DNA of 38,176 nucleotides. It comes from Verrucomicrobiia bacterium. Its GTDB lineage: Bacteria > Verrucomicrobiota > Verrucomicrobiia > Limisphaerales > DSYF01. Position numbers and translations under genes: made by a program. The notes beneath the pieces are model-generated. The model did not search any database, was not told the origin of the DNA, and was given only the letters and a program-made list of their open reading frames with translations. Location: positions 1 through 38,176 of the forward strand of contig DASTWL010000029.1 of assembly GCA_035765895.1 (NCBI GenBank), given 5' to 3'. Within the stretch, counting starts at the first letter, position 1. Each line of letters opens with the position of its first letter. Positions 2,505 through 38,176 of the stretch are shown one piece after another.

Positions 2505-2521
2505 CCCTGAATGTGGTATGG
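2505..2521 (+). promoter_or_regulatory. CCC-N5-GTGGTATGG element (site A)
   Basis: CCC at 2505-2507, then five bases, then GTGGTATGG at 2513-2521, lying in the 59-bp gap between kinase and regulator. The ATG of the regulator follows 24 nt after the GTAT core. This is one of eight copies of the same intergenic element in the window. Its place suggests the regulator has its own promoter or binding site. The function is inferred from recurrence only. Confidence 0.6.
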
Positions 2522-2543
2522 TCAGGCACATAAATTTTGAGGT

Positions 2544-9392: not shown

Positions 9393-9408
9393 TAATACCA
9401 CATTTGGG
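9393..9408 (-). promoter_or_regulatory. CCC-AAAT-GTGGTATTA element (site D)
   Basis: The minus strand reads CCCAAATGTGGTATTA, and the GTAT core is 77 nt before the ATG of pseudopilin copy 2. This is the only copy with a fair -35-like hexamer, TTGGAT, 17 nt upstream of GGTATT. The element sits between divergent genes. By orientation it serves the pseudopilin; whether it also affects the sulfotransferase gene (ATG at 9464) is open. Confidence 0.6.
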
Positions 9409-9463
9409 GGGTGACCATCCAATTTTACTGATTCGGCGGCGGGCGCCCGCTACTGTCGCGGCC

Positions 9464-14300: not shown

Positions 14301-14818
14301 CTTTGGAGGTGCAGTGCGCCGGCGGCGCCAACAGCTTCAGCGTTGGCTACCTGCCGGACAACAACTGGCACCACGTTGCCGTCAGCTACGACCAGTCCGC
14401 CAGCGGCGCCATCGCGGTTTACATCGATGGCGTGCTGCAACTCAGCAATCCGAACTCATCCGCCTGGTCGTGGTCGGCGAGCCAGGAAATCGAACTGGGA
14501 CGCTCCCACGACGGCTACTGGAAGCGTTTTGACGGACAGATGGATGATTTCCGCATCTACAACCGCGTGTTGTCGGACAGCGAAGTCGCTTCTGTGTTTG
14601 CCAGCGATGCCATCGTTGACGCGAATGCGTTGAAGCTGCGCTACAACTTTGACAACACCGGCATCGGGCAGACCGTCACCTGGCCCTTCGGCACACTGCA
14701 AAGTTCGCCCACATTGGGGCCGTCTGCGGTTTGGACGCCCGTCACCGGGGCCACCGCACTGGCGTTCCCCTTCCTGCCCACGAACGTGCCGTCGCTGTTC
14801 TTCCGCGCCACGCCTTGA
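11315..14818 (+). CDS. Large secreted LamG/Ig-like surface protein 1
   Basis: A 1167-residue protein with a signal peptide (MKRQQC...VPAAALMLGASQA). Domains by eye: an N-terminal beta-rich module (about 30-230, VGLNF...GYLDD...TIAS.DGG), two Ig-like domains (about 233-314 and 325-406, each with an HYQW/AYQW core and a GDYDV/ATYTV strand), then three LamG/concanavalin-like domains (about 411-644, 648-876, 882-1116) with WVKPA, WYHLAATYDG and WHHVAVSYDQ-type signatures. It ends SLFFRATP. LamG and Ig domains bind glycans or proteins, so a role in adhesion or polysaccharide capture is likely, but no catalytic domain is visible. The N-terminal module and the last LamG are closely related to those in the protein at 15834-19964. 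No Shine-Dalgarno is seen. A strong terminator follows. Confidence 0.85.
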   Translation: MKRQQCIPRFGKALLAVPAAALMLGASQAAQVGLNFQDNYNGSPYAPLTDTSAFGIALADWINVPSIANSSGTPVSTNATFTLPGGQNLSMAWSCKNTWSLTASIPTAGDNQVIYGYLDDTDYGYSVTLSGFRSFASDYTVTTIASTDGGTGFENVNVFSATETNTLQYLNNFVPDFTSNLRPLAGTSTVSTAFVTLNANDSVTIRGLTKTNSDIRSTLAGILISYTPATNNPPLVEANPQPPVGDIYPGGSFVLGSWASGAPTLHYQWRHDGMDIPGANYANYTNASTVVNDTGDYDVVVTNNFGAATSLMAHVTIQDVVAPVITQTPRSQSVYPGYPVSFSVAATGGQLAYQWKSNSVAIADATNTTYSIPSASAGDAATYTVDVSNPVGPTASASATLTVTVPAPGSYEAVMAQTKPLVWMRYSETGAIGQDTAANTGGSLGTAGTGLYVNATHPVAGAIVASTNTAAAFSGSNSRMFVPYAAELNPTTFTAEAWVKPAATGANLCVLSCGDFVGSNPRAGWLIYQQTGGWDLRTYNLNGTTTSMEISGGGAPVAGNWYHLAATYDGTTLTLYVNGANVGTFTDVGGLYYPGAAGPLSVGSRADGNFYWAGTVDEVAFYGTSLSAGQILAHYQNGTSVSPAQPYSTLIASDNPVTYLRLGEPAFVQNLATNLGTLGSAWAGAYIDSGSSLGSPQIAIGLVGPRPPAAPGLEAGNVAVGMTNGYVSVPQMTDLNVNTITVTGWVYREDPSSGSDLSFLAWLGDGGFHMVNDGELRYHWKGVKWEFSSGLYVPAEQWTFVALVVEPTKATFYMSDGGVLRSAVNTSSHAALAVSTPVEFGAQPGRSDRTYIGRLDESAVYNRALSQSEINTLFMVGTGAPLELGLAPGGIIEDTKPAGTLHHGVNVAVSCIWTNAILDANGTNRLGVEQFSTATPSQIVTPANPDFNSTVGTFTFWMRANAPIPGPGTEAAMLIDRRTSGTGAQGTVIALNDSGALEVQCAGGANSFSVGYLPDNNWHHVAVSYDQSASGAIAVYIDGVLQLSNPNSSAWSWSASQEIELGRSHDGYWKRFDGQMDDFRIYNRVLSDSEVASVFASDAIVDANALKLRYNFDNTGIGQTVTWPFGTLQSSPTLGPSAVWTPVTGATALAFPFLPTNVPSLFFRATP

Positions 14819-15764: not shown

Positions 15765-15833
15765 TTTACGTGAACCGGCAGTCATTTGATGGTGATTGCA
15801 AAAACCCGTTGCCCGAACTACCCAATACAACAA

Positions 15834-20141: not shown

Positions 20142-23100
20142 ATGAGTTTCCGCCAACCACCTCTCAAGCCCTGGCGTGCCGCCCTGTTTTGCGCCGTCGC
20201 CGTCCTGCCGCTGGCCGCCCACGCCCAGTATCACGCCTACAATGTGTCCAGCGGTTCGGACTGCATTGTGCAGGAATATCGCTCGGTCAATGTTCCTCCC
20301 GGCATCTACGACGCCATTCACGAAGAAACGCACAGCAGTTCCGATGGCGGCTCGGGCTACTTTTACGGCGGTTTCACGCACCAGAACCAGGGGGGCGCGA
20401 GCACGCTGGTGCAATACGTTTGCTGGCCGGCGAACGGCGGCTTTGCGCCCTACTCGCAGCAGATTCCCGTCTTCGCCGGCACCAACATGGTGGGCTACGC
20501 GCAAATCGGCGAGGGCAGCAGTTGCGCCATCAAGGGCTTCTGGCCGCAGTTTGACGCCAACTTGTGGTATCGCGAGGCGGTGCGGTATTGGCAGCCGGCC
20601 AACGGCACCCCGCATCTTGGCTACCAGGGCATGTGGATCAAGGAACCGGTCAGCGGCAACTGGTATCACGTCGCGACCTTCCTGTATCCGTTCGCCGTCA
20701 CGGGCGTGAACGGCATGAGCGGATGGCAGGAAAACTTCACCGGCTTCAGCGGCGATTACAAGGTGGCCCACGCGGGCGGCTACTATCACAAGAACGGCGT
20801 CTGGCAGCGCGCCAACAGCATCAATTTCACCTCGGGCGGCTACACCTACGCCAACACCGATGCGACGTTCGCGACCAGCTTTGCGGAGTCGGACGTCGGC
20901 CCCAGCTTCACGGGTTCGTATAACAACCCGCACACGGTCACGCTGACGGACCAGCCGGCCGCACCGGTCTTCGACCCCATTGTCGTCAGCAGTTCCAGCG
21001 CGCGCGTCCACAATTCCCAGTTGCTCGTGCAATGGGATCTGCCGCTGACGAGCTCGCCCCAGCTCGGCTACACCATCGAAGTTTTTGACAACGCGGGCTA
21101 CACCGGCTCGCCCGTCGTGACGTTCACCGACCGCGAACCGGAGACGCGACAGAAGCTGTTAAACATCCCGGGCGTCGCCACCCCCTACGTCCGGCTGACC
21201 ATTTCGGACATTTTTTTCAACACCAATTCGCCCATCCTGATCACCCCAACTACGCCCGCACTCAGCCCGGCGGTGAATGCGACCGGAACGGTCGCCGGCC
21301 TCGCCTACCAGTATTTCCAGGCGTCCTCCGGCAACTGGACCACCCTGCCCGACTTCGCATCGCTCACGCCCAAGCGTCGCGGTGCCGTGAGCTTTCCGGA
21401 CGCCAGCCCGCGGCAACGGCGCGTGAACTACAGCTTCACCTACACCGGCTACCTCACCGCACCGAGCGACGGGCTTTACGCCTTCACGTTGCATTCGGGC
21501 GATGGCAGCAAGCTGACCATTGATGGCACAACGGTCATTGATTTCGACGGGTTGCACGATTCGACCCAGTTCAAGAGCGGCAGCATCGCGCTGGCGGCAG
21601 GGAAACACTCGTTTGCACTGCAATTCTTCAAGGGGGCGGCCAATCCGGTGAACACCACCGCCTACACCGACGGCCTCGGCCTGGCGTGGGAAGGCCCCGG
21701 CATCGCGCCGGCGGATGTGCCCGCCTCGGCGTTCTCGCGCATCCCGAGCGGCAGCGAACCGGCCATCACGCTCAATGCGCCCGCCAACAACGCGACGTTG
21801 CTCAACACCGCGCCCGGCCTGAGTGCCTCCGTGACTCCCAACGGCGCGACGATGAACAGCGTCCAGTTTCTGCTGACCGACTACTATTCCTACTACGCCC
21901 GCCCAAACCGCGGGGTGGATTACGTCATCAGCCAGGACGCGCAGGCGCCCTACGCATTCAATGCGATGATCTGGACAGCGCCCACAAACCTCGTCCGGGC
22001 GCGGCTGATTTATGACGGCACCAACACGATTGATTCGGAACCGGTCAGCATCGCCACCACCAACGCGTCGTTGGCGCCGTGGTATTGGTCGCCCCTGGAA
22101 ATGCATAATTACCCCTCCGGCGCGGGCATCCAAAACGGCACGCTGAGCCTGCTGGGCGACGGCATGAACCTGCTCAGTCGCCAGGTCACTGGAGATTGCA
22201 CCCTCATTGCGCATCTGGCCGGCATCACGCCCAACACCACGGGCCCGGAGGGCATTTCTCCCGGCAGCGACTGGCGCGCGGGCATCATTCTGCGCGGCAC
22301 CACCAACACGACCATCGGTCAGCCGTTGGGCGATGGCAGCTCCACCCGGTTTGCGGCGTTGTTCAGTTCCGTGGGCGGCGGCACTTATTTCGAGGATGAC
22401 ACGATGCGCAATGGCAACGGCGATGCGAACCGCTGGTCCGCCAATCTCGGCGGCGGCAACCAGTGGTATAAACTGCAACGCACCGGCGACACCTTCACCA
22501 GTTTCGTCTCGATGGACGGATCGAGTTGGACGCAGGTGAACCGCACCAACCTCGCCAACTTCGGCGCCACGATTTACGCCGGCATGTTCATCCATTCCGT
22601 CCAGTCCCTGAATCCCAACCTTCACCAGGCCAGCTTCGACGGCATCAGCCTGATCGGCACCAACGTCATCGGCGGCGCCAGCATCACGGTCAGCCCCGCA
22701 ACCAACGCGGTGATTGGCGGTCTGCCGGCCACATTCACGGCTGCGGTCATTGGCCCGGCACCCGCCAGCTACCAATGGCAACGCAACGGCACCAACCTCA
22801 GCGGCGCCACCAACGCGAGCTATGCGATTCCCAGCGTCGGTGACAACGACGCTGGCGACTACACGGTGACGGCCGACGGCGTTACCAGCGCTGCGGCGGT
22901 GCTGCTGGTTTCCGCGCCCGCGGGATCCGGCATTTGGACCAACGGGAACGGCGGTTCCTGGACCACGAGCGGCAACTGGAAGGCCGGATCGATTGCGGGC
23001 GGGATTGATGCAGTGGCCGACTTCAGCACCTTGAGCCTGGGCACCAGCCCAACCGTTTCGCTCAACGGCGCCCGCACGAATGGCACGCTGGTCTTTGATG

Positions 23101-25895
23101 ATCTGAACCTCGCGGCCCCGCACAACTGGACTTTGAACACCGGTTCGGGCGGCCCGTTGACGCTGGCCGTGAGCAGCGGCACGCCCAACCTCGCGGTCAA
23201 GGCAGGCACCACGACCCTCAGCGCCGTGGTCGCCGGCACGCAGGGCTTCACCAAGACTGGCACGGGTCAGTTGACCTTGAGTGGCGCCAGCACGATCACC
23301 GGCCCCCTCAACGTGAACGACGGCACGCTGGAAGTTCAGAACAAGTCCGGCGACACCCCCTACGCCGTTGCGCCCGATGGCACGCTGAAGCTGGGCTACA
23401 GCACCGGCGGCGGCTATGCCGACACCGGGCTCACCATCAATGGCGCCGGCGCGAACGCCCCGACCGGCTTCCATCTCGCCGGCGGGACGAGTTACAATGC
23501 CAGCGGCCAGATCGCCCTGCTGACGGCTCCAACCACGATTCGTCAATATGGCGCCGGCTACGCGAGCATCGGCACGTTCGACATCACCGGAAACGGACTT
23601 TGGTGCAGCGCCTCCGCGTCCGGTTCCGCGAGCGATGCCAACGTCCAGTTCATCAGCAAGGGCTACGGCATGTCGGTCTCGATTGATGCCGGCGCCAGCA
23701 CCGCCACCGGTGATTTCACCATCAACGGGCCGCTCAACGTGGGCAGCCTTGGTTTCTACAAGCGCGGTGGCGGATCACTCGTGCTGAAAGGCGCGGCGGC
23801 GTCCGGCAATGCCGCCGTCAAAATTCAGGGAGGCACCGTGATTTGCGGCGTAACCGATTGCCTCGGCACGAATGCCAGTGTGCCCATCTCCACCGGCGCC
23901 ACGCTGGACTTGAACGGCTTCAGCCAGACGATTTCCAGCGCCAGCCTGGGCGGCACCTTGAAACTCTCGCTCAACAAGGGCGGCTCGCCCGCCAGCAGCG
24001 TGCTCACGACGACGGACGGCAATCCACTGACCCTGGGCGGCACACTCATCGTTGCCAACATCAGCACGAATGCCTTCGCCGCGGGCGACACGTTCACCCT
24101 TTTCAATGCGGCAGGCTACGCGGGCGCCTTCAACAGCGTCACCCTGCCGCTATTGCCCGGCGGTTTGATCTGGAACACCAACAACCTTCCGGCTGACGGA
24201 ACGATTTCCATCACGACCAATGGCTTGAGCGTCTGGGACGGCGGCGGCGCCAACGCGAACTGGAGCACGCCCGCGAACTGGACGGCCAGCCTCCCCGCCA
24301 ACGGCGATTCGCTTGTGTTTCAAGGCGCCCTGCGGCCGGGCAACAACAACGATCTGCTCAGTGGCGTGGGTCAGGTGGTCTTCAACAACGGCGGGTTCAC
24401 GCTCACCGGCAACGCCGTGTCGCTTCAGTGGGGACTGGTCAACCAGACGGGGAACAACAACTGGGGCATCAGCGCCACGCTGGCCGCACCTCAATCGTTC
24501 GTGAGCAGCAACGGCACGCTCACCCTCAGCGGCGCCATCAACAACGGCGGCTACGACCTCACGCTGGACGGAGCGGGCAGCCAGTCCATTTCCGGCGTCA
24601 TTTCGGGAAGCGGCCGGCTGATGAAGAACGGCCCGGGCACCGTTTCAATTTCCACCCGTGCCACCTACACCGGCGGAACCGTCATCAACAGCGGCACGCT
24701 GAATCTGACCGGGGGCGGCGGCGGCAGCGGGCCCATTCGCGGCGCCGTCACGGTCAACCCCGGTGGCACGTTGCAAATCAGCACCGGCGATGGCTTCGGC
24801 TACAACGCCGACAGCACGGTCATCAATCCGTTGAACATTGTGGGTGGCACCGTTTATGTAAGCAGCACCGGCAATCAGACTCTCGGCAACGCGGCCATCA
24901 ACCTGACCGGCGGAACCATCACCGGCGTCTCCAATGGCAACCTGGACTTTTTTCAAGGGAACTCGACGCTCAACACGTTTGCCGCCGGCACCACGGCAAT
25001 CATCAGCGGCGTGCCCTTGTCACCCTTGCGTCAGGGCAGCACCACGTTCAACGTCGCGGCCGGCACGACGCCCTCGGGCATTGACCTGGACATTTCTTCC
25101 GTGCTGCGCACCTCGCCAAGTGGCGACGCCGCCAATGCCGTGCTGATCAAGGCCGGCACCGGCACGCTGCGCCTGACAGCCGCCAACACCTTTTCCCGCC
25201 CCGTCAACGTGATGGCCGGCACCCTGTTGGTGAACGGCTCCCTGACTTCCGGCAGTTCCGTGATGGTTGCGCCCGGCGCCACGCTCGGTGGCACGGGCGT
25301 GCTCAACGGCGCGGTGACGAACAACGGCACCCTGACGCCCGGCAACTTCGGCATCGGCAGACTGACCATCAACAACAGTCTCCTGCTGTCGGGCACCGCT
25401 GTCATGGAAATCAGCAAAACCGGCAGCGTTCGCACCAATGACCTGGCATCGGTCAGCGGCACGCTCACGCAGGGCGGCACGCTGGTCGTCACCAACCTCG
25501 GGCCCGCAGCGTTGGCGGCGGGCGACAGCTTCAAGTTGTTCAATGCCGGCACATGGATGGGTGAATTCACGAACGTCAACCTGCCGCCGTTGGCCAGCGA
25601 CCTAGTCTGGGACGCGTCCGCCTTGGCGACCAGCGGAACCATCCTCGTCGTCGCCGCACCACAGTCGATCCCGCCCGGGATCACCGGCCTGGGTTGGTCG
25701 GCCGGAGCTGGCTTCAGCCTGACGGCCACAGGCGGTTTCAACGAAGCGTATGTGCTGCTGGCCACCACGAACTTAAGTTCCGCGACATGGCTGCCGCTAA
25801 AAACGAATCAGGCGGATGATGGCGGCGCGGTGCAATTTGCCGATCCCGACGCGACCAACCATCCGCAGCGATTCTATCGTCTGGGAACGCCTTGA
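20142..25895 (+). CDS. Giant secreted DUF3472/PA14/Ig/beta-repeat protein
   Basis: A 1917-residue protein with signal peptide MSFRQ...LPLAAHA. Domains by eye: DUF3472-like N-terminus (about 27-270; [38 protein letters not shown]), a PA14-like domain (about 382-523; [20 protein letters not shown]), a region resembling a concanavalin/DUF1349-type sandwich (about 640-843; [22 protein letters not shown]), an Ig-like domain (846-927; [16 protein letters not shown]), and two runs of autotransporter-associated beta-strand repeats (about 930-1360 and 1362-1850; [34 protein letters not shown]). It ends [11 protein letters not shown]14 and DUF3472 are carbohydrate-associated, so polysaccharide binding is likely. 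No classical catalytic site is evident and no outer-membrane barrel is present. The first beta-repeat run is shared with the protein upstream. Confidence 0.85.
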
Positions 25896-26031: not shown

Positions 26032-28347
26032 CTACCCCGCAAACGGCTTCGTCCTGAGATAGAGGCGGAAGTCCTTGATGCGGCCATGGTCGCTGTCCTG
26101 TCTCGGCAGCAGCCGGACGCCGGACAATTCATGCTCCGCACCCAGATCAATGACCAGCGTGTGCGGGTGCTTGGGATGCGGCGCGCTCCACAGGGTGTGC
26201 CAGAACGTGTCGCGGTCCCCATCGATGGCCAGTTCGGCCTGGTCGCCTTCGGCGAAGTTTTCCTCGCTGTCCGCGTAAAGGATTTTCCAGCCCTTGTGCC
26301 CGACCGACTGCCCTTCCGCGTTTAATGCGTCCAACTCGGCCAGCGTGGTGAACTCATCGCCGTTTTGCGAGGAAAGCGCCACCAGGCAGAGGTAGCGCCC
26401 CCGCCGGGCGGAAAAGCGAATTTCCTGCGCACTCGCACCAGCGGCCAGCGAACCTTCCTTGACCAGGTCCGAGGCTTCGAGTTTTGGAGCGGGCGTGTTT
26501 TTGCGACCGGGTGCGTTGTCGTCGTTGTTCAACTGGTCAAGAATGGGCGCCGCCAGTCCGCTGATTGCCGGCGTGCCGTCCTTGATTTGCTCGAACACCA
26601 CAACGTCGTTGCGACCCTTTTTGAGCCAGGCTCCCGGCAGATACAGCGTTTGCTGCGGTCCAATGTGCCAGTAGCGGCCCAGATTGTGACCGTTGACGAT
26701 GACGATGCCTTTGCCGCCGCCGCGCAAATCCAGGAACGCGTCGCCGAGCTGGGACAGCTCAAACGTTCCGTGATAAACCGCCGGCGCCGCAGGCGCCGTC
26801 CCCGACTTGAAGCGGAGCTGCGAAAGATCATCGAACGGAAACTTGAACATCTCCCAGCCGGTCAGTTCGCGGCCGTCCAGGGTGACGGATTCGGTGATGC
26901 CCTTGCGATTGTCGGGTATCTGCCCGCCGTAATTGATGCGACCGCCGTTTTCGACGAGGATGTCGAGTGTGCCGGACGATTCCGGAATGTTGAGTTCCAA
27001 GGAATCCTGCCGGTAACGCCGGTCCAGCACGCCCACCCGCCGCCCATTGAGGCACACCACGGCGTAATCGCGGAGTTCCTTGATCTTCAGCAAGCCGTTC
27101 GCCGGCCCCTTGATCTGGGTGCGATACAACACATAACCGTATCCTTGATTGAGATCTTCAAAGCTCAGCGGCCGCTCGGCTTTTACCGGCGTGCCCAGTT
27201 CGTCAAACAAGCTTGCAGCCCCGGTGAGGGCGATGGGCGGAATGGTGATGACCGGCGTGGTGGGCGGAACGTCCGGCAGCGTTTCCCCCGGCGCCAGATG
27301 CCGCGCCAGCACCTCGCGCAGCGCGAAGTATTTCTTCGTCGGCCGGCCCATTTCGTCCATGGGCGAATCATAGTCGTAACTGGTCGGCTGCGGCTGGAAG
27401 CGCCCGCCAAAGTTGGCGCCGTTCATGAAGCCGAATGAGGTGCCGCCGTAGATCATGTAGTAGCAGAACGAAACATTGTTCGTCAGCTTCCAGGCGGTTT
27501 CACGGACGAGACCGGGAATGCCCACGCGCGCGTGCGGCTCACCCCAGTGATCCAACCAGCCGGGATAAAACTCGGGCACGAAATACGGACCCTGCGGACG
27601 ATATTTGCCGATTTCCTTGAAGATGCCCGGGCCGCTGCCGCCGTTCAGTCCCGGCAAGACATCCGGCAGGGAGCCGTTTGCCATCATCTGCCCGCCGCCA
27701 TCCGCCGTAAACAACGGCACGTCAAAACCCGCGGCGCGAATCATGTCCCGAATCTTCCCCATGTAAACGTGATCGCCGCCGTAGCTGCCGTATTCGTTTT
27801 CCACCTGAACCATGATAATGGGGCCTCCTTGGGTGATTTGCAGCGGGGCGAGCTGTTCACCGAGCTTTTTCAAATACGTTTCCGACGCCGCCAGAAAACG
27901 CGGATCCTGGCTGCGGACCTTCAAATCGTGCGGCTTCAGGAGCCACCACGGAAATCCGCCAAACTCCCATTCCGCGCAACAATACGGTCCGGGACGCACA
28001 ATCACCCACAGCCCTTCCTTTTGCGCCAGCCGCACGAACTCCGCCATGTCGCCATCGCCGTGAAAATTGAACTCGCCCTCGCCCGGCTCCAGTTGATTCC
28101 AGAACACGTAAATCGAGACGGTATTCAACCCCATGGCGTGAATCATCCGCAGGCGGTCCGCCCAATACTCATGCGGCACCCGCGCCGGATGCATCTCGCC
28201 GGCCTTGATCTGAAAGGGCTTGCCGTTCAGCAGAAACGCTGAATCGCCCACCGTGAAGGTGTCCTTGGCCACTGCGCCCGCCCCCCACGCCAGCCAGGCG
28301 CAGGCCAGCACGACCGGCCAACTGAACGAACAGAATATTTTTTTCAT
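26032..28347 (-). CDS. Secreted GH35 beta-galactosidase
   Basis: A 771-residue enzyme with a signal peptide (MKKIFCSFSWPVVLACAWLA...AVA). The (beta/alpha)8 GH35 domain (about 30-380) carries the family signatures AGEMHPARVPHEYW, RPGPYCCAEWEFGGFPWWLL, the acid/base in QVENEYGSYGG (Glu185) and the nucleophile in FVPEFYPGWLDHWGE (Glu259). Jelly-roll domains follow (about 430-620; GHNLGRYWHIGPQQTLYLPG). The C-terminus (about 640-771; ARRGRYLCLVALSSQ, DGDRDTFWHTLW, HPHTLVIDLG) is an F5/8-type (CBM32-like) domain. It releases terminal beta-linked galactose, e.g. from arabinogalactan or RG-I side chains. The open frame runs 54 codons upstream, through the regulatory element, but the signal peptide fixes the start at 28347. 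It is probably periplasmic. Confidence 0.94.
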   Translation of the reverse strand: MKKIFCSFSWPVVLACAWLAWGAGAVAKDTFTVGDSAFLLNGKPFQIKAGEMHPARVPHEYWADRLRMIHAMGLNTVSIYVFWNQLEPGEGEFNFHGDGDMAEFVRLAQKEGLWVIVRPGPYCCAEWEFGGFPWWLLKPHDLKVRSQDPRFLAASETYLKKLGEQLAPLQITQGGPIIMVQVENEYGSYGGDHVYMGKIRDMIRAAGFDVPLFTADGGGQMMANGSLPDVLPGLNGGSGPGIFKEIGKYRPQGPYFVPEFYPGWLDHWGEPHARVGIPGLVRETAWKLTNNVSFCYYMIYGGTSFGFMNGANFGGRFQPQPTSYDYDSPMDEMGRPTKKYFALREVLARHLAPGETLPDVPPTTPVITIPPIALTGAASLFDELGTPVKAERPLSFEDLNQGYGYVLYRTQIKGPANGLLKIKELRDYAVVCLNGRRVGVLDRRYRQDSLELNIPESSGTLDILVENGGRINYGGQIPDNRKGITESVTLDGRELTGWEMFKFPFDDLSQLRFKSGTAPAAPAVYHGTFELSQLGDAFLDLRGGGKGIVIVNGHNLGRYWHIGPQQTLYLPGAWLKKGRNDVVVFEQIKDGTPAISGLAAPILDQLNNDDNAPGRKNTPAPKLEASDLVKEGSLAAGASAQEIRFSARRGRYLCLVALSSQNGDEFTTLAELDALNAEGQSVGHKGWKILYADSEENFAEGDQAELAIDGDRDTFWHTLWSAPHPKHPHTLVIDLGAEHELSGVRLLPRQDSDHGRIKDFRLYLRTKPFAG

Positions 28348-28442
28348 GTCTGCGTGAACTGTTGCGAAGACGCCCAGCCTCCAGGAAATGGTGAACACAG
28401 GGCGCCGTGAACCGCACGCTAGCATCACGGTTCGGCCGGCGG

Positions 28443-28458
28443 CCATACGCAATTTGGG
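28443..28458 (-). promoter_or_regulatory. CCC-AAAT-TGCGTATGG element (site H)
   Basis: The minus strand reads CCCAAATTGCGTATGG: the CCC-AAAT part and the GTATGG part match at the common spacing, but GTG is replaced by TGC. The GTAT core is 97 nt before the GH35 ATG. It is the most divergent member of the set. Confidence 0.45.
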
Positions 28459-28540
28459 TGAGGACCACACCCTAACCGCCGTCTTTCGGGGAGAGTGACC
28501 ACGACGCATTGACGTTCATCGTCGCCGCGCCGCGCCGGAA

Positions 28541-31500
28541 TCATTTCGTTTTCACCCGCAGCACGGTCACAGAAATGGGAGGAAACGCATGCGTGAATTG
28601 CGGACTGCTAATGGTAAACGTGGACAGCTTCGGCGCGACGGCTTGCGGCTGTGCGAATGAGTTTTCATCCGTCAAATGCGCGGCGGTCAGCAGGACGGCC
28701 TGGGCCGGGCCCGTCACGCGGGTCTGGCCCGCGAGGTCAAGCGTGCCCGCCACGGTTCGCGCCGAAGCGTTGACCACCTTGACGATGACTTCCCGCGTCG
28801 CCGTGTCGTAAGCGGCACTGGCAAACAGTTGCGGCACGTCACCGTCCTGCAATTCAGGCGCGTCGAGCGTGACCGGCAGGACGACGTCGCCCCGGTTCCG
28901 GCTGAACAGTTGTTGGACGTAATAATTGGGCGTGCCGTAAACGTGCAGGTTGTTCACCCAGATGAGGTCGGGCGTCCATTGCCAGGCATCCACGTTGGCA
29001 AAGAGCGGCGCGTAACTGGCCATGCGCACGACATCCGCGTTGCGCTCCAGCCCGGTCATGAACGCCGCCTCCGACAACGCGCATTCCCAGGTGTTGCGGT
29101 TTTCCGGACTGCCGGTGTTGACACTTTGCGCGGCGTATTCACCCATGAAAACTTTCGGTCCGCTGCGGTCATAATCGTCATAACGGGTCGCAGCCTTGAA
29201 GAACCAGTCCGGTCGGGCGTAGCTGTGTTCGTCCACAATGTCCGGACGCAGCTCGCGCCACTTGGACCAGAGGAATTTGAAGCGGTCGTCCGCCGGCGAC
29301 GGTCCCGCCGCGACGACGAGCGAAATCTCCGGATGCTTTTCCTTGAGCACCCGGGCAAAGGCCGTGTAGCGCTCGACGTATTGTGGTCCCCATTGCTCGT
29401 TGCCCACTCCCAGCAGTTTCATGTGAAACGGCGCGGGATGGCCCATGGCGGCGCGTTTGGCCCCCCACTCGCTGGTGGCCGGGCCGTTGGCGAATTCAAT
29501 CAGGTCCAGCGCGTCCTGGATGTATTGGTCAAGCTGGTCGGGCGGGCAAAGCTCCCCGGAGTTGAACTGGCAGGCCATGCCGCAATTCAGAATCGGCAGC
29601 GGCTCCGCGCCGATGTCCTCGCACAACTGGAAGTATTCAAAGAAGCCCAGCCCAAACGACTGGTAATAGTCGGGCGTGAGCCGGTGTCTGAACTCATCAT
29701 TCCAGCGGTTCTTGATGAGCTTCCGCTCCTCGACCGGACCGATGGTATTCTTCCATTGGTAGCGATTCGCCAGCGTGTGGCCCTCGACAATGCATCCACC
29801 GGGAAAGCGCACAAAACCCGGCTTCAAGTCGGCCAGCATCTGCACCATGTCGGCACGCAGCCCTCCGGGCCGATGTTTCCACGTGTTCACCGGGAAAAGC
29901 GACACCATGTCCACGTCCGCCGTGCCCTGCCCTTCGACGACCAAATTCAGCCGCGCCTTGGCCTCCGTGGTTTTGGGCTGGAGCGTGGCATGCAGTTTCT
30001 GCCACGTGGCGCCCAGCCGCTCGATGCGCGCATACGCCAGCACCTGCCCTGCGCCGCTGACCAGTTCCACGCCCAGCGCCGGTGAGCCGTTGACCGCCCG
30101 TGCCTGCACGGAAAAATCATAATCCTCTCCCGCGCGCACCCCCATGCCGCGGAAACCCTCGTTGGACACCCCGAACGCAGCGGCGCCGTCCGAAGCAATG
30201 CGCAGATAATGCACGTTGGCCGCGTCGAAGGGATCTGCGTCGCGAATCTCCAGTTTACCCTGCGCTCCGCCGGCGCGCAGCTCGCTCCATCCCATCATCG
30301 CATTGGGGAATTCAAAGGCGCGGTTCTTGACAAGTTCCGCATAAAGCCCGCCGTCAGCGCCAAAGTTGATGTCCTCAAAAAACACGCCCCACATGGCCGG
30401 ATTGATTCGGGCTCCCGGATGATCCACGGCCACGGTGAGTTTCACCTCCGTCGGAACGCGCCGCACGACGCGCACCCCAAACAAACCGCCCGCGTAATTG
30501 CCCGGATGCGCACTCAGTTTCACGGTGACGCGCGCTTTGCCCTGCGTCAGTTGCTCCGGCACCGGATAGGTTTTGTCCCAGAACTTCCCCGGTTGATCCT
30601 CATGCAGACTGGTGGTGGCGATGCGTTCCCCACCCACGAGCACATCGAACGTGCGATTGCCGGTTTCACCGCCCCAGTAAGTGAAGATCAAGTCCGCCGG
30701 GCCATTGGTCGGCACGGCCACTTCAAAGCTGAACCAGCCGCCGTCCCATGCGTGTCGCAGTTTGCGTCCGCTGAATTCGCCCGGCCCGGACTTGTCGCCC
30801 TGCACGTTGTGATCCCGCTCAGGCTGCATCTCGCCGGGTTGGAACAACTCCACGGTGCGGTCGGCCAGCGCCTTCAAGCGCGCCTGTTCAGCCGCGTAGG
30901 CCTTTTCCCGCGCGGCCCATTCCGCGGTCGTAAAAACATCCCAGTAAACCGAGTAACGATCGGCGTAAGTCGAGTAGAATGGATGGAGTTCGACATCCGC
31001 GGGGCGGCCCACGCCCGTCGTGCGGAACGTCAGCGGCCTGCCCGCCACAGGCTTCACCCAGTCCGCCACCGTTTGGTCGCCCGTGACGAACACGGGCACC
31101 GCCGTTTCTGAGCCAATCGCCCCCAGGTCGCCCGCCAGCAAAATTGGGCCGTCGAAAAGGGCGATGCGCTCCGGATTGTCGGGCATCGCCTCCGTGCGGA
31201 GCTGTAACGGCATGTCAACTTCCAGCGTGTCGCCATCGTGCCATTCGCGGGTGATGCTGGCGTAGCTCTGCGGCGCACTGTCCACATCCAGCGCCCGGCC
31301 GTTGAGCTTCACGACAAACCCGTTTGTAACCCAGAACGGATGCCGGACGTGCACGGTGAGTTTAACCGGCTGCGCGCAGGTGAAGCGCAGCGTGCTCTGG
31401 CCGGTCTTCGGGAAATCCGTTTCCTGCCGGACCCGCAGCCCGTGCGCCGCCCAGTTCAACTCCGAGGCAATGAAGAGGTTCACCCACAACGCATCGCTGC

Positions 31501-32797
31501 TGTGGTAGTAAATGTTGTCGCCATAGCGGGCATGGTTCTCCATGCCGGTGCCGTTGCAGCAGGTGAAATCTTCCGCGCCGAGGAACTGCTTGTGCCCGCC
31601 CTGCGCGAGCGAGAGGAAATAGCACACCTGGCCCGTGGCCGGATTTTGCGATGCCAGAATGTGATTATGGACCGCGCGTTCGTAGTAATCCGCATAGCGG
31701 GCCTGCGGCTCCAGCTCGAACAGCTTCCGCGCGAGCTTCAGCATGTTGTAGGTATTGCAGGTTTCCGTCGTGTTCGCGCCCAGCCGGTCGTTGAGTTTGC
31801 CGGAAGGACCGAAATGTTCGCCCAGGCTGTTGCCGCCCGTCACGTAGGTGTGGTTGGTCAGCACGATGTTGAAGAAGTTCCGGGCGATGTTGCCGAACTT
31901 CGCCTCACCCGTGAGCTCATAAATCCGGGCCGCGCCAATGATCTTCGGTATCTGCGTGTTGGCGTGCTTGCCCGGCAGATCATCCCGTCCCGCCGCCAGC
32001 GGATCCAGAATCGCCCGGTGGTAAAACTTTTTCGCCAGATCGAGATACCTGGTTTCACCCGTCAGCGCGTAAAGATTGGCGAGCGCCTCGTTCATGCCCC
32101 CGTGTTCGCAGGCGAGCATTTTCTGCCATTGCTCGTCGGTCAGGTTTTTGGTCGTTGCAATGGTCCAATCGCCGAGACGCGACGCGACCTGCAGGGCCTT
32201 TGCATTATCGCAATAGCGGTAAGCATCGATCAACCCCGCGAACTCCTTGTGCAGCGTATACCACGGCACCCAGGCACCATTCAGGTCGAAGCCCGCCGAA
32301 CGAATGTCACCGCGCGCCACCTCCGCAAAAACCTTTTTGCCGCCCGGAATGGCCGCGAGGTAGCCGTTGCCGTTGGCCCGCTGGCACTCGTCGAGTTGGT
32401 CAACGATGTAATTGACGCGCTCGAGGAAACGCCGGTCGCCCGTGTCCTGATACATGCGGGCGCACGCGGACAGATAATGCCCGAGACTGTGACCGGCCAC
32501 GCCCCGGGCCTCCCAGCCGCCGTAATTGGCCGCTTTCACGGGCAGCCCCGCCTCCTTGCGGAACCAACTGAGCAGGCGGTCCGCGTCCAGGCTCAACAGC
32601 CCCGCCGCGTCACGGTCCATCGCTTCTTTGAACGGCCCGTCAAGGAGGCGCACTTCCCGCGGCAGAAACGGCACCGCCTGCGGCGCGACCACCGGCGCCA
32701 CCCTGTCGTCCGCCGCCCGGGCGGAGACCGATAAATAAAGAAACCCAAGTAAAACGACTTGCAACGTCCCAGCGAAACGTTGACCGGCGGAATTCAT
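28541..32797 (-). CDS. Fused GH127/GH146-type beta-L- and GH51 alpha-L-arabinofuranosidase
   Basis: A 1418-residue secreted protein with signal peptide MNSAGQRFAG...SVSARA. Residues about 35-600 are a GH127/GH146-type (alpha/alpha)6 domain: RLLDGPF, WEARGVAGHSLGHYLSA, AWVPWYTLHK, GGMNEALANLY, and the zinc-thiolate site E345-T-C347 with C413-C414 in FTCCNGTG, as in characterised beta-L-arabinofuranosidases. A linker beta-sandwich (about 649-776) follows. Residues about 785-1418 are a GH51 alpha-L-arabinofuranosidase with INPAMWGVFFEDINFGADGG, a CBM4_9-like insert, FVRFPGGC, acid/base Glu1134 in GVGNEQWG and nucleophile Glu1220 in VFMGEYAA. All key residues are intact in both halves, so both activities are expected. 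The GTG at 32806 is an alternative start. No clear copy of the repeated element is seen upstream; it may be read through from the regulator gene 178 bp upstream. Confidence 0.92.
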   Translation of the reverse strand: MNSAGQRFAGTLQVVLLGFLYLSVSARAADDRVAPVVAPQAVPFLPREVRLLDGPFKEAMDRDAAGLLSLDADRLLSWFRKEAGLPVKAANYGGWEARGVAGHSLGHYLSACARMYQDTGDRRFLERVNYIVDQLDECQRANGNGYLAAIPGGKKVFAEVARGDIRSAGFDLNGAWVPWYTLHKEFAGLIDAYRYCDNAKALQVASRLGDWTIATTKNLTDEQWQKMLACEHGGMNEALANLYALTGETRYLDLAKKFYHRAILDPLAAGRDDLPGKHANTQIPKIIGAARIYELTGEAKFGNIARNFFNIVLTNHTYVTGGNSLGEHFGPSGKLNDRLGANTTETCNTYNMLKLARKLFELEPQARYADYYERAVHNHILASQNPATGQVCYFLSLAQGGHKQFLGAEDFTCCNGTGMENHARYGDNIYYHSSDALWVNLFIASELNWAAHGLRVRQETDFPKTGQSTLRFTCAQPVKLTVHVRHPFWVTNGFVVKLNGRALDVDSAPQSYASITREWHDGDTLEVDMPLQLRTEAMPDNPERIALFDGPILLAGDLGAIGSETAVPVFVTGDQTVADWVKPVAGRPLTFRTTGVGRPADVELHPFYSTYADRYSVYWDVFTTAEWAAREKAYAAEQARLKALADRTVELFQPGEMQPERDHNVQGDKSGPGEFSGRKLRHAWDGGWFSFEVAVPTNGPADLIFTYWGGETGNRTFDVLVGGERIATTSLHEDQPGKFWDKTYPVPEQLTQGKARVTVKLSAHPGNYAGGLFGVRVVRRVPTEVKLTVAVDHPGARINPAMWGVFFEDINFGADGGLYAELVKNRAFEFPNAMMGWSELRAGGAQGKLEIRDADPFDAANVHYLRIASDGAAAFGVSNEGFRGMGVRAGEDYDFSVQARAVNGSPALGVELVSGAGQVLAYARIERLGATWQKLHATLQPKTTEAKARLNLVVEGQGTADVDMVSLFPVNTWKHRPGGLRADMVQMLADLKPGFVRFPGGCIVEGHTLANRYQWKNTIGPVEERKLIKNRWNDEFRHRLTPDYYQSFGLGFFEYFQLCEDIGAEPLPILNCGMACQFNSGELCPPDQLDQYIQDALDLIEFANGPATSEWGAKRAAMGHPAPFHMKLLGVGNEQWGPQYVERYTAFARVLKEKHPEISLVVAAGPSPADDRFKFLWSKWRELRPDIVDEHSYARPDWFFKAATRYDDYDRSGPKVFMGEYAAQSVNTGSPENRNTWECALSEAAFMTGLERNADVVRMASYAPLFANVDAWQWTPDLIWVNNLHVYGTPNYYVQQLFSRNRGDVVLPVTLDAPELQDGDVPQLFASAAYDTATREVIVKVVNASARTVAGTLDLAGQTRVTGPAQAVLLTAAHLTDENSFAQPQAVAPKLSTFTISSPQFTHAFPPISVTVLRVKTK

Positions 32798-32975
32798 GCG
32801 CGCCACGATAATCCACTTTATGCCGGAGCGTCCAGAACGTTGCAGCCGCCGTGCGGGTGCGAAGCGGCGCAGCGGACAGTTTCACCGCCGGCTGTCACCA
32901 TCCCCCGTCGAAGTGATCTGCCTTTGCCCAATATTTTCCGCCGTCTACCGCAAAGCAACCCTGTTTTGAAACACC

Positions 32976-33680
32976 TCAGCGCGCGGCGGCGGACGCCGTG
33001 CTGCGCGGCTCGTTCTGCTGTCCAAGATGCTTGGCCACGGCCTGGGCCCGCGAACGCACGTGCAGTTTTTCGTAAACGCGGCGGATGTGCGTGTGCACGG
33101 TGTCGTAACCGATGCCGAGGGCTTCGGCGATTTCCTTGTAGAGAAAGCCCTTGGCCAGGTAATCGAGCACTTCCTTTTCCCGCGGGGACAGGCTCGCCGT
33201 TTCCCGCGCCACCGGGGCGGGCTGTTGAAACGAGGCCACGACTTTGCGGGCGATGTGGCTGCTCATCGGGGAGCCGCCGCGGTTCAGCTCCTGAATTGCC
33301 GCGAGCAATTCATCGGGCGGCGTCTGCTTGAGCAGGTAGCCGCTCGCCCCGGCGGATAATGCACTGAAGATGTGGTCGGTGTTCTCGTAAACGGTCAGCA
33401 TCATCACCTGCGCCCGGGGCTGGACCTCCTTGAGCAGTCGGACGCATTCGACACCGCTCATGCCGCCGAGGTTGATGTCCATCAGCACCACGTCGGGCTG
33501 ATGCGCCGGCAGGTCGCGCAACGCGTCCTCGGCCGAAGGGTGTTTGCTGACGCAGACGAAGCCCGGCGAACGGTCGATCAGCCGCGCCAGACTTTCACGC
33601 ACGCGGTGATCGTCTTCCACGATGGAGACGCCGATGGGTTTTTGCCCGGTGGATGCCGCATTCGCCATTTTCGACTTCAT
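32976..33680 (-). CDS. NarL/LuxR-family response regulator, second system
   Basis: A 234-residue regulator. The receiver domain (about 16-135) has E22-D23-D24, phospho-acceptor Asp68 in VVLMDINLGG, Thr96 and Lys118. The LuxR-type HTH (about 163-220) has LSPREKEVLDYLAKGFLYKEIA and YDTVHTHIRRVYEKLH. It begins 8 bp after the stop of the kinase gene, so the two are co-transcribed. It is a clear paralogue of the regulator at 2544-3209 but has an extended Ala/Ser-rich C-terminal tail and lacks its own copy of the intergenic element. It is a likely regulator of the arabinosidase and GH35 genes downstream on the same strand. Confidence 0.93.
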   Translation of the reverse strand: MKSKMANAASTGQKPIGVSIVEDDHRVRESLARLIDRSPGFVCVSKHPSAEDALRDLPAHQPDVVLMDINLGGMSGVECVRLLKEVQPRAQVMMLTVYENTDHIFSALSAGASGYLLKQTPPDELLAAIQELNRGGSPMSSHIARKVVASFQQPAPVARETASLSPREKEVLDYLAKGFLYKEIAEALGIGYDTVHTHIRRVYEKLHVRSRAQAVAKHLGQQNEPRSTASAAAR

Positions 33681-33688
33681 GCTGGACT

Positions 33689-36600
33689 CTACCCTGACCC
33701 GGGGCCAGTCGCCAATACTGGCGACTCATCCGTCACCACTGGCAGTGCAAACACCACGCGCGTGCCCTGCCCCGCCGTGCTGGAGACGTCACAGCGCCCG
33801 CCAATGTCTTCAAGCCGCCGCACAATGTTCCGCAGGCCGTGCCCCGAACTGGCGCGCTCGCTACGGCCGGCCGCCGCGGTCGGGGCGTTGATTCCCCGGC
33901 CGTCATCCTCGATGGTGATCCGGATCATCCGCGGCTGGCATTCGAGGCGCAACGTGGCCACGGTGGCGCCCGAGTGCTTGACGATGTTGTTCAGGGTTTC
34001 CTTGATGGCGAGATACAGGTTGTGCCGCGTCTCGGCACCGAGCACGCAGTTGGGCAGTTGCGTGGGCACGTCCAGCCGGCAGCGGATTCCCGCCAGCGTC
34101 AGGTATTGCTGGGCAAATTTGCTGATGTAAGTGATCAACCCTTCGAGGGTGTCGTTCTGCGGATTGATGGCCCAGACGATTTCATCCATTGCGCGCGTCA
34201 GTTCCCGGGCCGTGCTCGAAATCTGGCCGACATGCGCCTCCACCTCCTCGGGTGTGTCGCGCCGCGCGAGTTCGCTCAGCAGCGTAATCTGCGTCAAGCC
34301 CGCGCCCAGGTCGTCATGAATGTCCTTGGCAATGCGCGCCCGGTCGCGTTCCACGGCGCGTTGCCGTTCAACGCGCTCCATCTCCGCGCGCAGCCGCCGC
34401 CGGAACGTCCAGCGCACGGTCAAAACCGCCAGGCTGCCGGCCAGCCCCGCGAGCGTCACGGCAAACCACCAGGTTTCATAGAATTGCGGTTCGACGTGCA
34501 GCCGGAGAATCGCTCCCCCCTTGTTCCAGACGCCCTCGTTGTTGCAGGCCGTCACGTGAAACGTGTATTCGCCCGGCCGCAAAAAACTGTATTGCACAAA
34601 CCGCCGCGGCCCGGCCTCCACCCAGTCCTTTTCCAATCCCTCCAGCCGGTAACGAAACCGCACCTTGTCGGGCGAAACGAAGCTCAGCCCAGTGTAATGA
34701 AACTCGAACTGACGCTTGCCCGGCGGCACATCGAGGACGCGTTCCGGCGCAACCGCATGACTGCTGCGCTCGCCGGCGGACGGCAGTTCGACGGTCATAC
34801 CGCGCAGATTTTGTTCGACACCATCAATCAGCAGTTCCTCGATGGCGACGGGCGGCGGACGCAAGTTGGGCGCGACATCGTCCGGCTGGATGGAGACGGC
34901 GCCTTTGAGCGTGGTGAACCACAGTCGCCCGCCCTGCGTGCGCCAGCAGGCTGGCTGGTAACTGCCGGAACATTCCAGCGCCGGCAGGCCGTCGTAGCGT
35001 CCGTAAGCCGTGCAGGGAATGGCGGGGAGTTCTCCGCGGGCGTAATTGTTCAGCGCCGCCCGCGCCACGCGGAAAATGCCCTGATGCGAACCCGCCCACA
35101 GATTGCCTTTGTCGTCGGAGAGCAACTGCGCAATGACATTGTCCGGGAGCCCGTCCTTGACCGTGAAGCGGCGAAACTTTCCATCCGCGTAGCGCAACAG
35201 CCCGCCGCGGAAGGTGCCGGCCCAGACGGTGCCGTCCGGGTCCACCTGCAAGGACCAGACCGGATGTCGCCCCGCGCTCGCACCGGGATTCAACATCACG
35301 ACATTGGTGTTCCGGATGCGATACAGATTCCCATCGCCCCCGCCCGCCCACAAAACACCGTCCTTCCCTTCCGCCAGGGCCCGGATGTCCACCGACCGCG
35401 GGACGCCGGGATACGGCGAGAAGAGGTGCGTCTCCAGATTGGTGCACACGAACAGGCCGTCCTTGCGTCCGGTCCAGACCATTTGTCCATCGCGACTGGT
35501 CAGAATGACTTTCACACCGTGATTGACCGGCAGGCAGCGCTGCAATTGTCCTCCGGTGAAGGTGAACAAATCCTCGTCGCCCACACTCAGCCACAGCCGG
35601 TCGCCCAGGCCGGGATAAACGCTGAAGACAAATCCATGGCCGCGCCCGCCCGGCACGTCAAACAGGTCCAGCTGGCCGTTTCGCCAGCGGGCGAGGCCGC
35701 TGCCTTGCGTGCCGAACCACATCGCACCGCCGGCGTCTTCACATACCGAAACCATCGCCGCCGGCTGCGCGCCCTCAGCCACGCTGAACGACTGGAAACG
35801 CTTTTTGCGCAAACGCACCAGGCCGCCGCGATTGACCCCCGCCCAGAAATCACCCTCCGAATCCTCGCAAAAACAATCCACCCGGTCGCCGGGAAAACCT
35901 TCATCCGGCGTGAAGCGGCGGGTGACGCGGTTGGTTTCCACGCGCACGAGTCCGAGGCCATATTGCCGGAACCACATGCTGCCGTCGCGCTCCTCGTGAA
36001 CGCCCAAGCGTTGCACGGCGGCGCCGTCCAGGGCTTCCCCCCAGGGCCGGAAGCCGGGCTGCCACTGGCGCTGCCGGCTGTTTTGCAAATGTTGATCCGC
36101 CACCAGCCAGGTTCCGTCGTGCTGGGTCTGGTAGACGAAGGTGATGTCTGCGGGCGTCGTCCCGTTCGTCGGCGTCTGATCCACGAACCGGTTCTGTTCC
36201 CAAACCACCACGCCGCGATCGGTTCCGACCCAGATGCGCCCGGCGTCGTCCGCCGTCACGCACCGGATGCGTCGCCCCTCCAGCCCGCTCTCCACCGGCG
36301 GCGGCTCAAATGTTCCACCGCGCAGCCGCCAGAGCTGCGCATCACGCCCCCGATACCACAACGTCCCCGCCGCGTCTTCACACGCGGCCGTGCCCAAGCC
36401 CTTGGCCGGTGGCTCCAGAATCTGCCAGGCATTGGTGCGGCTAAAATCGCGGCGGATGAGGTCGCCCGTTGGCAGCAGAAAGGTCACATGATCCGGCTTG
36501 GACACCACCTGCAGGATTTCCAGGTCGGCGTATTCCCGACTGCGCCATTCCAGCCTGAATACCCCGCCGCGACACGACGTCAGCGAGCCATCGTAAGTGT

Positions 36601-36952
36601 TGATCCAAAGCGTTCCCTGCGCGTCGAGGTAAAGTTTGCGGATGCGCGCGTGCATCAATTGCGGGGTGTTTTCGGGATCAAACGTGACGAAGCGCACACC
36701 GTCAAAACGCGCCAGGCCGTTGTAGGTGCCAATCCAGAGATAACCATCCGGCGTTTGCACGATGCCGGTCACGGAGCTGTTTGGCAGGCCGTCCTCCGTG
36801 GTCCAGACGTCGATGAGATAATCACTGCCCGCGCCGTTTTGATTGGTGAGCGTGCCGTTGGCGGTCGTTGGCTGCCCGGCCGCCGCCATGAGCCCGCCGC
36901 AAATCAGGGCCAAGCACCAGGCCAAGCCGCGGATTCGGGGCGACGGAGTCAT
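33689..36952 (-). CDS. Propeller-type sensor histidine kinase, second system
   Basis: A 1087-residue membrane sensor. It has a signal peptide (MTPSPRIRGLAWCLALI), about fourteen propeller blades (YLWIGTYNGLARFDG, RIWVGTDRGV, NLWAGSHQGIF; about 35-700), a Y_Y_Y domain (about 730-800; VRFRYRLEGLEKDWVEAG), a membrane helix (about 815-840), HisKA_3 with KDIHDDLGAG (His879), and HATPase_c with N-box KETLNNIVKHS and GHGLRNIVRRLEDIG. It probably binds an oligosaccharide outside the cytoplasmic membrane and signals to the regulator encoded 8 bp downstream. The frame is open back to GTG 37012, which overlaps the TGA of the rhamnosidase gene, but the ATG at 36952 gives a proper signal peptide. Confidence 0.94.
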   Translation of the reverse strand: MTPSPRIRGLAWCLALICGGLMAAAGQPTTANGTLTNQNGAGSDYLIDVWTTEDGLPNSSVTGIVQTPDGYLWIGTYNGLARFDGVRFVTFDPENTPQLMHARIRKLYLDAQGTLWINTYDGSLTSCRGGVFRLEWRSREYADLEILQVVSKPDHVTFLLPTGDLIRRDFSRTNAWQILEPPAKGLGTAACEDAAGTLWYRGRDAQLWRLRGGTFEPPPVESGLEGRRIRCVTADDAGRIWVGTDRGVVVWEQNRFVDQTPTNGTTPADITFVYQTQHDGTWLVADQHLQNSRQRQWQPGFRPWGEALDGAAVQRLGVHEERDGSMWFRQYGLGLVRVETNRVTRRFTPDEGFPGDRVDCFCEDSEGDFWAGVNRGGLVRLRKKRFQSFSVAEGAQPAAMVSVCEDAGGAMWFGTQGSGLARWRNGQLDLFDVPGGRGHGFVFSVYPGLGDRLWLSVGDEDLFTFTGGQLQRCLPVNHGVKVILTSRDGQMVWTGRKDGLFVCTNLETHLFSPYPGVPRSVDIRALAEGKDGVLWAGGGDGNLYRIRNTNVVMLNPGASAGRHPVWSLQVDPDGTVWAGTFRGGLLRYADGKFRRFTVKDGLPDNVIAQLLSDDKGNLWAGSHQGIFRVARAALNNYARGELPAIPCTAYGRYDGLPALECSGSYQPACWRTQGGRLWFTTLKGAVSIQPDDVAPNLRPPPVAIEELLIDGVEQNLRGMTVELPSAGERSSHAVAPERVLDVPPGKRQFEFHYTGLSFVSPDKVRFRYRLEGLEKDWVEAGPRRFVQYSFLRPGEYTFHVTACNNEGVWNKGGAILRLHVEPQFYETWWFAVTLAGLAGSLAVLTVRWTFRRRLRAEMERVERQRAVERDRARIAKDIHDDLGAGLTQITLLSELARRDTPEEVEAHVGQISSTARELTRAMDEIVWAINPQNDTLEGLITYISKFAQQYLTLAGIRCRLDVPTQLPNCVLGAETRHNLYLAIKETLNNIVKHSGATVATLRLECQPRMIRITIEDDGRGINAPTAAAGRSERASSGHGLRNIVRRLEDIGGRCDVSSTAGQGTRVVFALPVVTDESPVLATGPGSG

Positions 36953-37008
36953 GTTAAAGTCTGCGTAGAGTGCGCGTGAAACGCAAGCCGCCCCGAACAT
37001 GCCCCACA

Positions 37009-38176
37009 TCACGGCTGGACTGCTGTCACCGGCGTCAACGTCACCGGCCCCAGCAACCCCGCATCCGCCAGCGGCCAGTTCGAGGCGTCAAATGGCCGGT
37101 AGTCGAGATTCACAAAATTGATGTCGTGATAGCTCTTCCATTGAACCCCGCGCCGGTCCAGGTCGCGAATCCGGTTGGCATCCGTATTCGTCACTTCCAC
37201 TTCGAGCAGGTTGTTGGTCGGCGCAAGCCGGACCGCCGCCACCCGAAACGGCGGGGTGAAGAGCGTGCCGAGGTCCACTCCATTCAAACGCACCCGCGCG
37301 CTCTGGCATACCTTGCCGAGATCCAATTCATAAACGCCCGGCGCCGGCGCATTCGTCGGCGCGTCAAAACGGATGACATAACGCGCCGGGCCGGCAAACC
37401 GCTGGGCATTGGCATCGCCCAGTTGCGTCCACGAGGCCAGTTGATCGGTTTTGAACGGCGCCGGCAATTCGGGCCCGCCATCAATGAACGACACCTGCCA
37501 CTCGCCCGACAACGGTTCGGACCGCCCGTCCGCCTGCCACCACTTCCAGACCGGCCCGTTCAATTTGCGAGCCGCACTTTCCCGCAGCACCAGCGCATCG
37601 CCCGGGCGCAATTGCACCCGCGCTTCGATCGGGCTCGTCTTGCCCCGGCGGACCGATGTCGTGCCCGTCTGGCCGGTCAATGGGTCAAGAACGACAACCG
37701 ATTTGGCCGTGCGCGCCAGCGGCAGCCAGCCATCAAACGGCGTGTCGCCGCGATTCGCGACGAAGTAGGTGGTTCCCGAATCCGCCCGGCGACGAATGCA
37801 CATCAAGCCCGGATGATCAAACAGGGTTTCGCGGGTTACGCCAGCCGCCGTCAGCGCGGGTTTCAACGGGCCCACCAGCACTTTGCCACGGCCAAAGCGC
37901 ACGGATTGCACTTTTCCATTTTCGCCGGATTTTGCGGGCGGCAAACGCAACGATTGCACCAGTTGCGCGAACTCGGCGCGGCGTTGCTCAAGCTGAGCCA
38001 GCCCCGACACATCGCCCGGCAAACGATCCTGGAACAACACCGTCGCCCCGCCGCGCGCGAGTTCCAACGCGCGCCGCAGGGTGGCCAGTGGCATGACGTT
38101 GCACGGCGGCAGCAACAGCACCTGATGGGTTCCGTGCCCGGACACCGGCATGCCGGTCAACTGCCGGTCGGAGATG
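37009..38176 (-). CDS. GH106-type alpha-L-rhamnosidase, C-terminal part only
   Basis: The frame is open to the right edge, so the N-terminal catalytic region is outside the window; about 388 residues are visible. The first part (GHGTHQVLLLPPCNVMPLATL...LARGGATVLF) and the next (FVANRGDTPFDGWLPL, VVVLDPLTGQTG, LRPGDALVLRES) match the C-terminal half of GH106 enzymes. The final jelly-roll (ELDLGKVCQSARVRLNGVDL, PPFRVAAVRLAPTNNLLEVEVTN, AGLLGPVTLTP) is the GH2-like sugar-binding domain found in that family. GH106 enzymes release alpha-L-rhamnose from pectic and other polysaccharides. The stop (37009-37011) lies 56 bp before the kinase ATG, on the same strand, so enzyme, sensor and regulator appear to form one operon. 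Confidence 0.75.
   Translation of the reverse strand, partial: ISDRQLTGMPVSGHGTHQVLLLPPCNVMPLATLRRALELARGGATVLFQDRLPGDVSGLAQLEQRRAEFAQLVQSLRLPPAKSGENGKVQSVRFGRGKVLVGPLKPALTAAGVTRETLFDHPGLMCIRRRADSGTTYFVANRGDTPFDGWLPLARTAKSVVVLDPLTGQTGTTSVRRGKTSPIEARVQLRPGDALVLRESAARKLNGPVWKWWQADGRSEPLSGEWQVSFIDGGPELPAPFKTDQLASWTQLGDANAQRFAGPARYVIRFDAPTNAPAPGVYELDLGKVCQSARVRLNGVDLGTLFTPPFRVAAVRLAPTNNLLEVEVTNTDANRIRDLDRRGVQWKSYHDINFVNLDYRPFDASNWPLADAGLLGPVTLTPVTAVQP

Follow-up and report, generated by a model that had tools for sequence, protein, structure and literature searches.

A Predicted Secreted GH146-GH51 Fusion Protein for Arabinan-Type Side Chains in a Verrucomicrobiia Bacterium

Introduction

A gene on contig DASTWL010000029.1 of a Verrucomicrobiia bacterium (GCA_035765895.1) appears to encode two arabinofuranosidases of different families in one reading frame, and the locus raises the question of whether this is a genuine product of gene fusion and whether both halves are equipped to act on L-arabinofuranose of opposite anomeric configuration. 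A preliminary description of the window, by which we mean the whole analyzed stretch of 38,176 nucleotides, read the gene as a single secreted protein with GH127/GH146-type and GH51 domains. We examined this reading using domain searches, alignments with solved enzymes, predicted structures, and a search for similar fusions in other genomes.

Results and Discussion

The reading frame and its domains

The gene is one unbroken ORF of 1421 codons on the minus strand, from a GTG at 32806 to 28541, and the window contains no ambiguous base (N). The position 32797, at which the preliminary description began the gene, corresponds to the ATG codon for Met4, nine bases downstream of the in-frame GTG, and the two starts lead to an identical Sec-type signal peptide. 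On inspection by eye, the peptide lacks a lipobox Cys. The single ORF, the signal peptide, and the Pfam domains bear out both the presence of the two catalytic types on one polypeptide and its description as a single secreted fusion protein. The features of the gene are as follows.

28541..32806, minus strand: GH146-GH51 fusion gene, 1421 codons from GTG 32806, with the ATG of Met4 at 32797
32714..32797, minus strand: Sec-type signal peptide, residues 4-31 (MNSAGQRF...YLSVSARA), read by eye
31517..32656, minus strand: GH146 catalytic (alpha/alpha)6 barrel, residues 51-430 (Pfam GH127 catalytic, 2.8e-125)
31205..31489, minus strand: GH127 middle beta-sandwich domain, residues 440-534 (Pfam)
30941..31102, minus strand: DUF4986, the second beta-sandwich region of GH146, residues 569-622 (Pfam)
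30467..30871, minus strand: DUF6805, residues 646-780 (Pfam), the C-terminal jelly roll of GH146 enzymes such as BT0349
30422..30466, minus strand: fusion join, residues 781-795, ..GVRVVRR|VPTE|VKLTVAV.. (alignment with stand-alone relatives)
28544..30439, minus strand: GH51 half, residues 790-1421, with E811, C1005, N1136, E1137, Y1196, and E1223

In a search of solved structures, residues 47-763 matched BT0349 (PDB 5opj, GH146) with 508 bits; the same half scored 251 bits against Bll3HypBA1 (8k7x, GH146) and at most 74 bits against the solved GH127 enzymes, and a fold search with the predicted model of residues 31-1230 likewise ranked GH146 structures above those of GH127. Thus, the N-terminal half belongs to GH146 and not to GH127, by which the earlier GH127/GH146-type label stands as to type and is narrowed to one family. 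DUF6805 is the GH146 enzyme's own jelly roll and not a linker.

Active sites of the two halves

In Bll3HypBA1, Zn is bound by E723, C725, C804 (the nucleophile), and C805, while E694 serves as the acid/base and E578 is essential (PMC10850190). In our alignment to 8k7x, the four Zn-site residues correspond to E348, C350, C416, and C417, and E694 and E578 to E330 and E234, respectively. The E345-T346-C347 and C413-C414 motifs of the preliminary description are therefore present as E348-T349-C350 and C416-C417 when counted from the GTG (the earlier numbers being lower by three), and the acid/base E330, absent from its list, is present as well. These GH146 sites are intact in 14 of the 15 aligned sequences, the sole exception being a protein of another genome (L029, described below). 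The window enzyme has W179 at the position of W162 in BT0349, where Bll3HypBA1 has I522, which hints at a beta-linkage preference like that of BT0349. BT0349 is active on arabinan-derived oligosaccharides and is encoded in a rhamnogalacturonan I (RG-I) locus (PMC10850190). From these residues, the GH146 half is predicted to hydrolyze beta-L-arabinofuranosides.

The C-terminal half matched two GH51 families of Pfam far above the cut-off, the barrel ASD1 (PF22848) at residues 989-1225 (7e-60) and Alpha-L-AF_C (PF06964) at 1222-1412 (1.5e-39), and most of it was modeled with pLDDT >90 in the predicted structure of residues 640-1421. The closest solved GH51 enzyme is MgGH51 (PDB 6zps), which matched residues 792-1420; together with the 5opj match (47-763), this match spans nearly the whole mature chain, and the fold search with the 31-1230 model recovered both of these enzyme types. 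Glu23, Asn350, and Tyr402 of MgGH51, described together with the acid/base Glu351 and the nucleophile Glu429 (PMC7604909), align with E811, N1136, and Y1196, and the two catalytic glutamates align with E1137 and E1223, confirming the earlier observation that both are present. These two residues were unchanged in all nine sequences of the GH51 alignment, and C1005 occupies the position of Cys74 in bacterial GH51 enzymes. Hydrolysis of alpha-L-arabinofuranosides is accordingly the predicted activity of this half.

The fusion join

Alignment with stand-alone relatives located the join closely. The window protein reads ..GGLFGVRVVRR-VPTE-VKLTVAVDHPGARINPAMWG.. in this region; GH146 relatives that stand alone terminate at ..GGVFGVRVVRR* or a few residues from there, and in stand-alone GH51 relatives a signal peptide directly precedes the same VKLTVAVDHPG-type start, so that only four residues separate the natural end of the GH146 enzyme from the mature N-terminus of the GH51 enzyme. 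Since the join lies where the stand-alone GH146 enzymes end and the mature GH51 enzymes begin, exactly three elements have been removed: the stop codon of the first gene, the spacer, and the signal peptide of the second. GC content is even across the region, and the codon usage of the two halves matches (RSCU r=0.94; GC3 0.785 and 0.769). Both predicted structures (31-1230 and 640-1421) recover the halves and define neither an interface nor a mutual arrangement; the two-domain model had a pTM of 0.54, and the segment around the join had pLDDT <50.

Relatives and rarity of the fusion

With the exception of L029, the genes that best matched the two halves were separate in the 58 relatives compared. 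The closest stand-alone genes, each 71% identical to its half (L063 for GH146 and L052 for GH51), lie in different genomes and were not seen adjacent to one another. Tandem genes of the two families do occur. The same genome carries such a pair on another contig (C49, L039), in which a GH146 gene ending in ..GIRIVKTK* is followed about 70 bp later by a GH51 gene that starts with its own signal peptide; four Rufibacter loci (L071, L126, L129, and L142) have GH146 and GH51 genes in tandem on one strand, the GH51 of L071 retaining its own signal peptide; the two genes overlap in L076; and a Planctomycetales pair (L072) has the reverse order. The only other genome of the same genus lacks both enzymes.

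With a junction probe of 369 residues across the join, we searched four sets of genomes: the order (320 genomes) and the phylum (387) of this bacterium, the class to which Rufibacter belongs (395), and the phylum that includes a Planctomycetales MAG (392). This amounts to approximately 1,490 genome searches with slight overlap, and the best five or six candidates were scored per genome. No full-probe match outside the window was found among the matches listed from these searches, which by design pass over fusions with one divergent half, such as L029. That protein (G049:C148, 7209-11966, minus strand), of another Limisphaerales genome, is a GH146-CBM4_9-GH51 chain of 1586 amino acids in one ORF without N. 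Its GH146 has an intact Zn/Cys site and Val in place of the acid/base Glu, and judged by these residues it is possibly a half-dead bifunctional enzyme. Because its GH146 falls in a different, well-supported clade from that of the window and the relationship between the two GH51 halves is remote, L029 represents a separate fusion event. Among the genomes searched, L029 was the only other true GH146-GH51 chain found.

Two kinds of candidate were rejected. L066 (G253:C13, 1765 amino acids), considered as a second close fusion, has a run of N between its halves, retains the GH51 signal peptide intact, and is a tandem pair; other tandem pairs with open-frame lengths of 1515-1729 have stop codons between the genes. 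No chain with both GH146 and GH51 was found among the other long proteins with a GH146 or a GH51 domain (L151-L155, L158, and L162-L172). Three proteins are GH43-GH146 fusions: L164 (469-5493), L165 (434-5500), and L152 (1146-5735), all on the plus strand. Taken together with L029, they indicate that the fusion of GH146 with arabinan-type enzymes is recurrent.

Other architectures were also seen. L151 (4663-9267, plus strand), of another Verrucomicrobiota genome, joins a GH127/146-like domain with a domain of the GH59 galactocerebrosidase type, and L056 (4404-9512, plus strand) and L040 (6894-11831, minus strand) each have two GH127/GH146-type catalytic domains per chain.

This exact GH146-GH51 protein is so far unique, and we found no GH146-GH51 or GH127-GH51 protein named in the literature, our coverage of which is incomplete. 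As each half is an ordinary member of a known family, with chemistry that is already known, the protein represents a new combination of domains from known enzymes.

Gene neighborhood

The genes around the fusion gene are as follows.

26032..28509, minus strand: GH35 beta-galactosidase with an F5/8C domain, the next gene downstream, 31 bp away (Pfam)
32976..33680, minus strand: LuxR-type response regulator, upstream on the same strand (Pfam)
33689..37012, minus strand: two-component sensor (Reg_prop/Y_Y_Y/HisKA_3/HATPase; Pfam)
37009..38175, minus strand: possible GH106 alpha-L-rhamnosidase, C-terminal part, cut by the contig end (22 bits against a Pfam cut-off of 29)

The GH35 gene downstream, together with the regulators and the weak GH106 match upstream, fits a pectic (RG-I) or arabinogalactan locus, and this context agrees with the trimming of pectic or arabinan side chains; the preliminary description had proposed pectic or AGP side chains. 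Elsewhere in the window, a second pair of a Reg_prop sensor kinase and a LuxR-type regulator lies at 7-3209 on the plus strand, opposite to the 32976-37012 pair. A TPR-sulfotransferase protein is encoded at 9404-11020 (plus strand), and a 1917-amino-acid protein with DUF3472, PA14, Ig, and PATR repeats at 20142-25895 (plus strand) is adjoined by LamG/Ig-rich giants at 11315-14818 and 15786-19964.

Proposed function and alternative explanations

We consider that the gene quite probably encodes a bicatalytic exo-arabinofuranosidase that is secreted, serves to trim arabinan-type side chains, and arose by gene fusion, its activity being predicted from the sequence. A GH146 gene would have fused with the GH51 gene following it when three elements were lost: the stop codon of the former, the signal peptide of the latter, and the spacer between them. 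The GH146 module would remove terminal beta-L-arabinofuranose with the Zn-bound Cys nucleophile C416 and the acid/base E330, and the GH51 module would remove alpha-L-arabinofuranose by a retaining Glu/Glu mechanism (E1223/E1137). Exported as one chain, the two activities may thereby reach beta-capped alpha-arabinan (RG-I), or side chains related to it, at a constant 1:1 stoichiometry. The single ORF, its domains, catalytic residues, and signal peptide, the position of the join, and the tandem relatives are observations; the activity of each half, the substrate, and the benefit of tethering we infer. Specificities vary within both GH51 and GH146, and targets of the AGP, extensin, or RG-II type are therefore possible as well.

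An assembler that joined two neighboring genes in frame could produce a similar sequence, and several circumstances are in keeping with such an artefact: the genome is fragmented into 96 contigs, of which the window is one, relatives have tandem GH146-GH51 genes, the exact fusion occurs in no second genome among those searched, and the halves of the look-alike L066 proved to be bridged by a scaffold gap that had been translated as X. However, the join in the N-free window keeps the frame and removes exactly a stop codon and a signal peptide, which random misjoining would not favor; the halves agree in GC content and codon usage; and a fusion of separate origin, likewise without N, is present as L029 in a different genome of the order. 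For these reasons, we regard an assembler join as highly improbable. It is also conceivable that just one half is catalytically relevant, the other having turned into a binding or structural module. The Val at the acid/base position in the GH146 of L029 makes decay of one half after fusion possible, but in the window protein all tested catalytic and Zn residues of both halves are present, and the halves are 60-71% identical to stand-alone enzymes; we judge this explanation unlikely.

A further explanation is channeling, in which a beta-capped chain would be handed over from one pocket to the other, GH146 first, without being released in between. On beta-capped alpha-arabinan, the two activities would follow each other logically, and just about four residues link the halves. 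Enzymes of families GH146 and GH51 are exo-glycosidases of the retaining type and split off one arabinose unit at a time, and a processive enzyme, which repeats catalysis without release, usually has a cleft or tunnel. Both families consist of exo-acting pocket enzymes releasing a monosaccharide, and the structure models define no interface, which tells against channeling; in BT0349, moreover, the jelly roll shields the pocket from the polymer (PMC10850190). The processive handover raised in the preliminary description thus found no support, and we hold channeling to be very improbable. A more general proposal is that placing GH146 next to GH51 would give intramolecular synergy on beta-capped arabinan and might have been selected more than once in Verrucomicrobiota with GH51, in parallel with GH43; we offer it as a speculation that is rather doubtful.

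A natural enzyme from a single gene, with predicted action on beta-linked as well as alpha-linked L-arabinofuranose, would be useful for opening pectic arabinans. It also provides a convenient system for asking whether tethering two exo-enzymes helps, and a clean example of a CAZyme gene pair turned into one protein.

Comparison with known systems

BT0349 of Bacteroides thetaiotaomicron (PDB 5opj, 6yqh, and 8qf8) has the same order of barrel, two beta-sandwiches, and jelly roll/DUF6805 as the window GH146, and shares with it the Cys3-Glu Zn site and the active-site Trp. However, BT0349 stands alone and stops at the jelly roll, whereas the window protein continues into a complete GH51 enzyme. 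MgGH51 of Meripilus giganteus (PDB 6zps) corresponds over its full length to residues 792-1420 with conserved pocket residues, but it is fungal and stands alone, while the window GH51 is attached to GH146 and has no signal peptide of its own. In the tandem pairs (C49/L039, Rufibacter, and L072), enzymes of these two families are likewise encoded next to each other on one strand, but as two proteins with a stop codon between them instead of one chain. L029 has the same order of catalytic families in a single ORF, although its GH51 is only about 25% identical to that of the window and it differs further in the additional CBM4_9 linker domain and the replacement of the acid/base Glu by Val. In L164, L165, and L152, a possible alpha-arabinofuranosidase family (GH43, activity putative) is joined to GH146, as in the window protein; there the GH43 partner lies on the N-terminal side, whereas the partner in the window is GH51.
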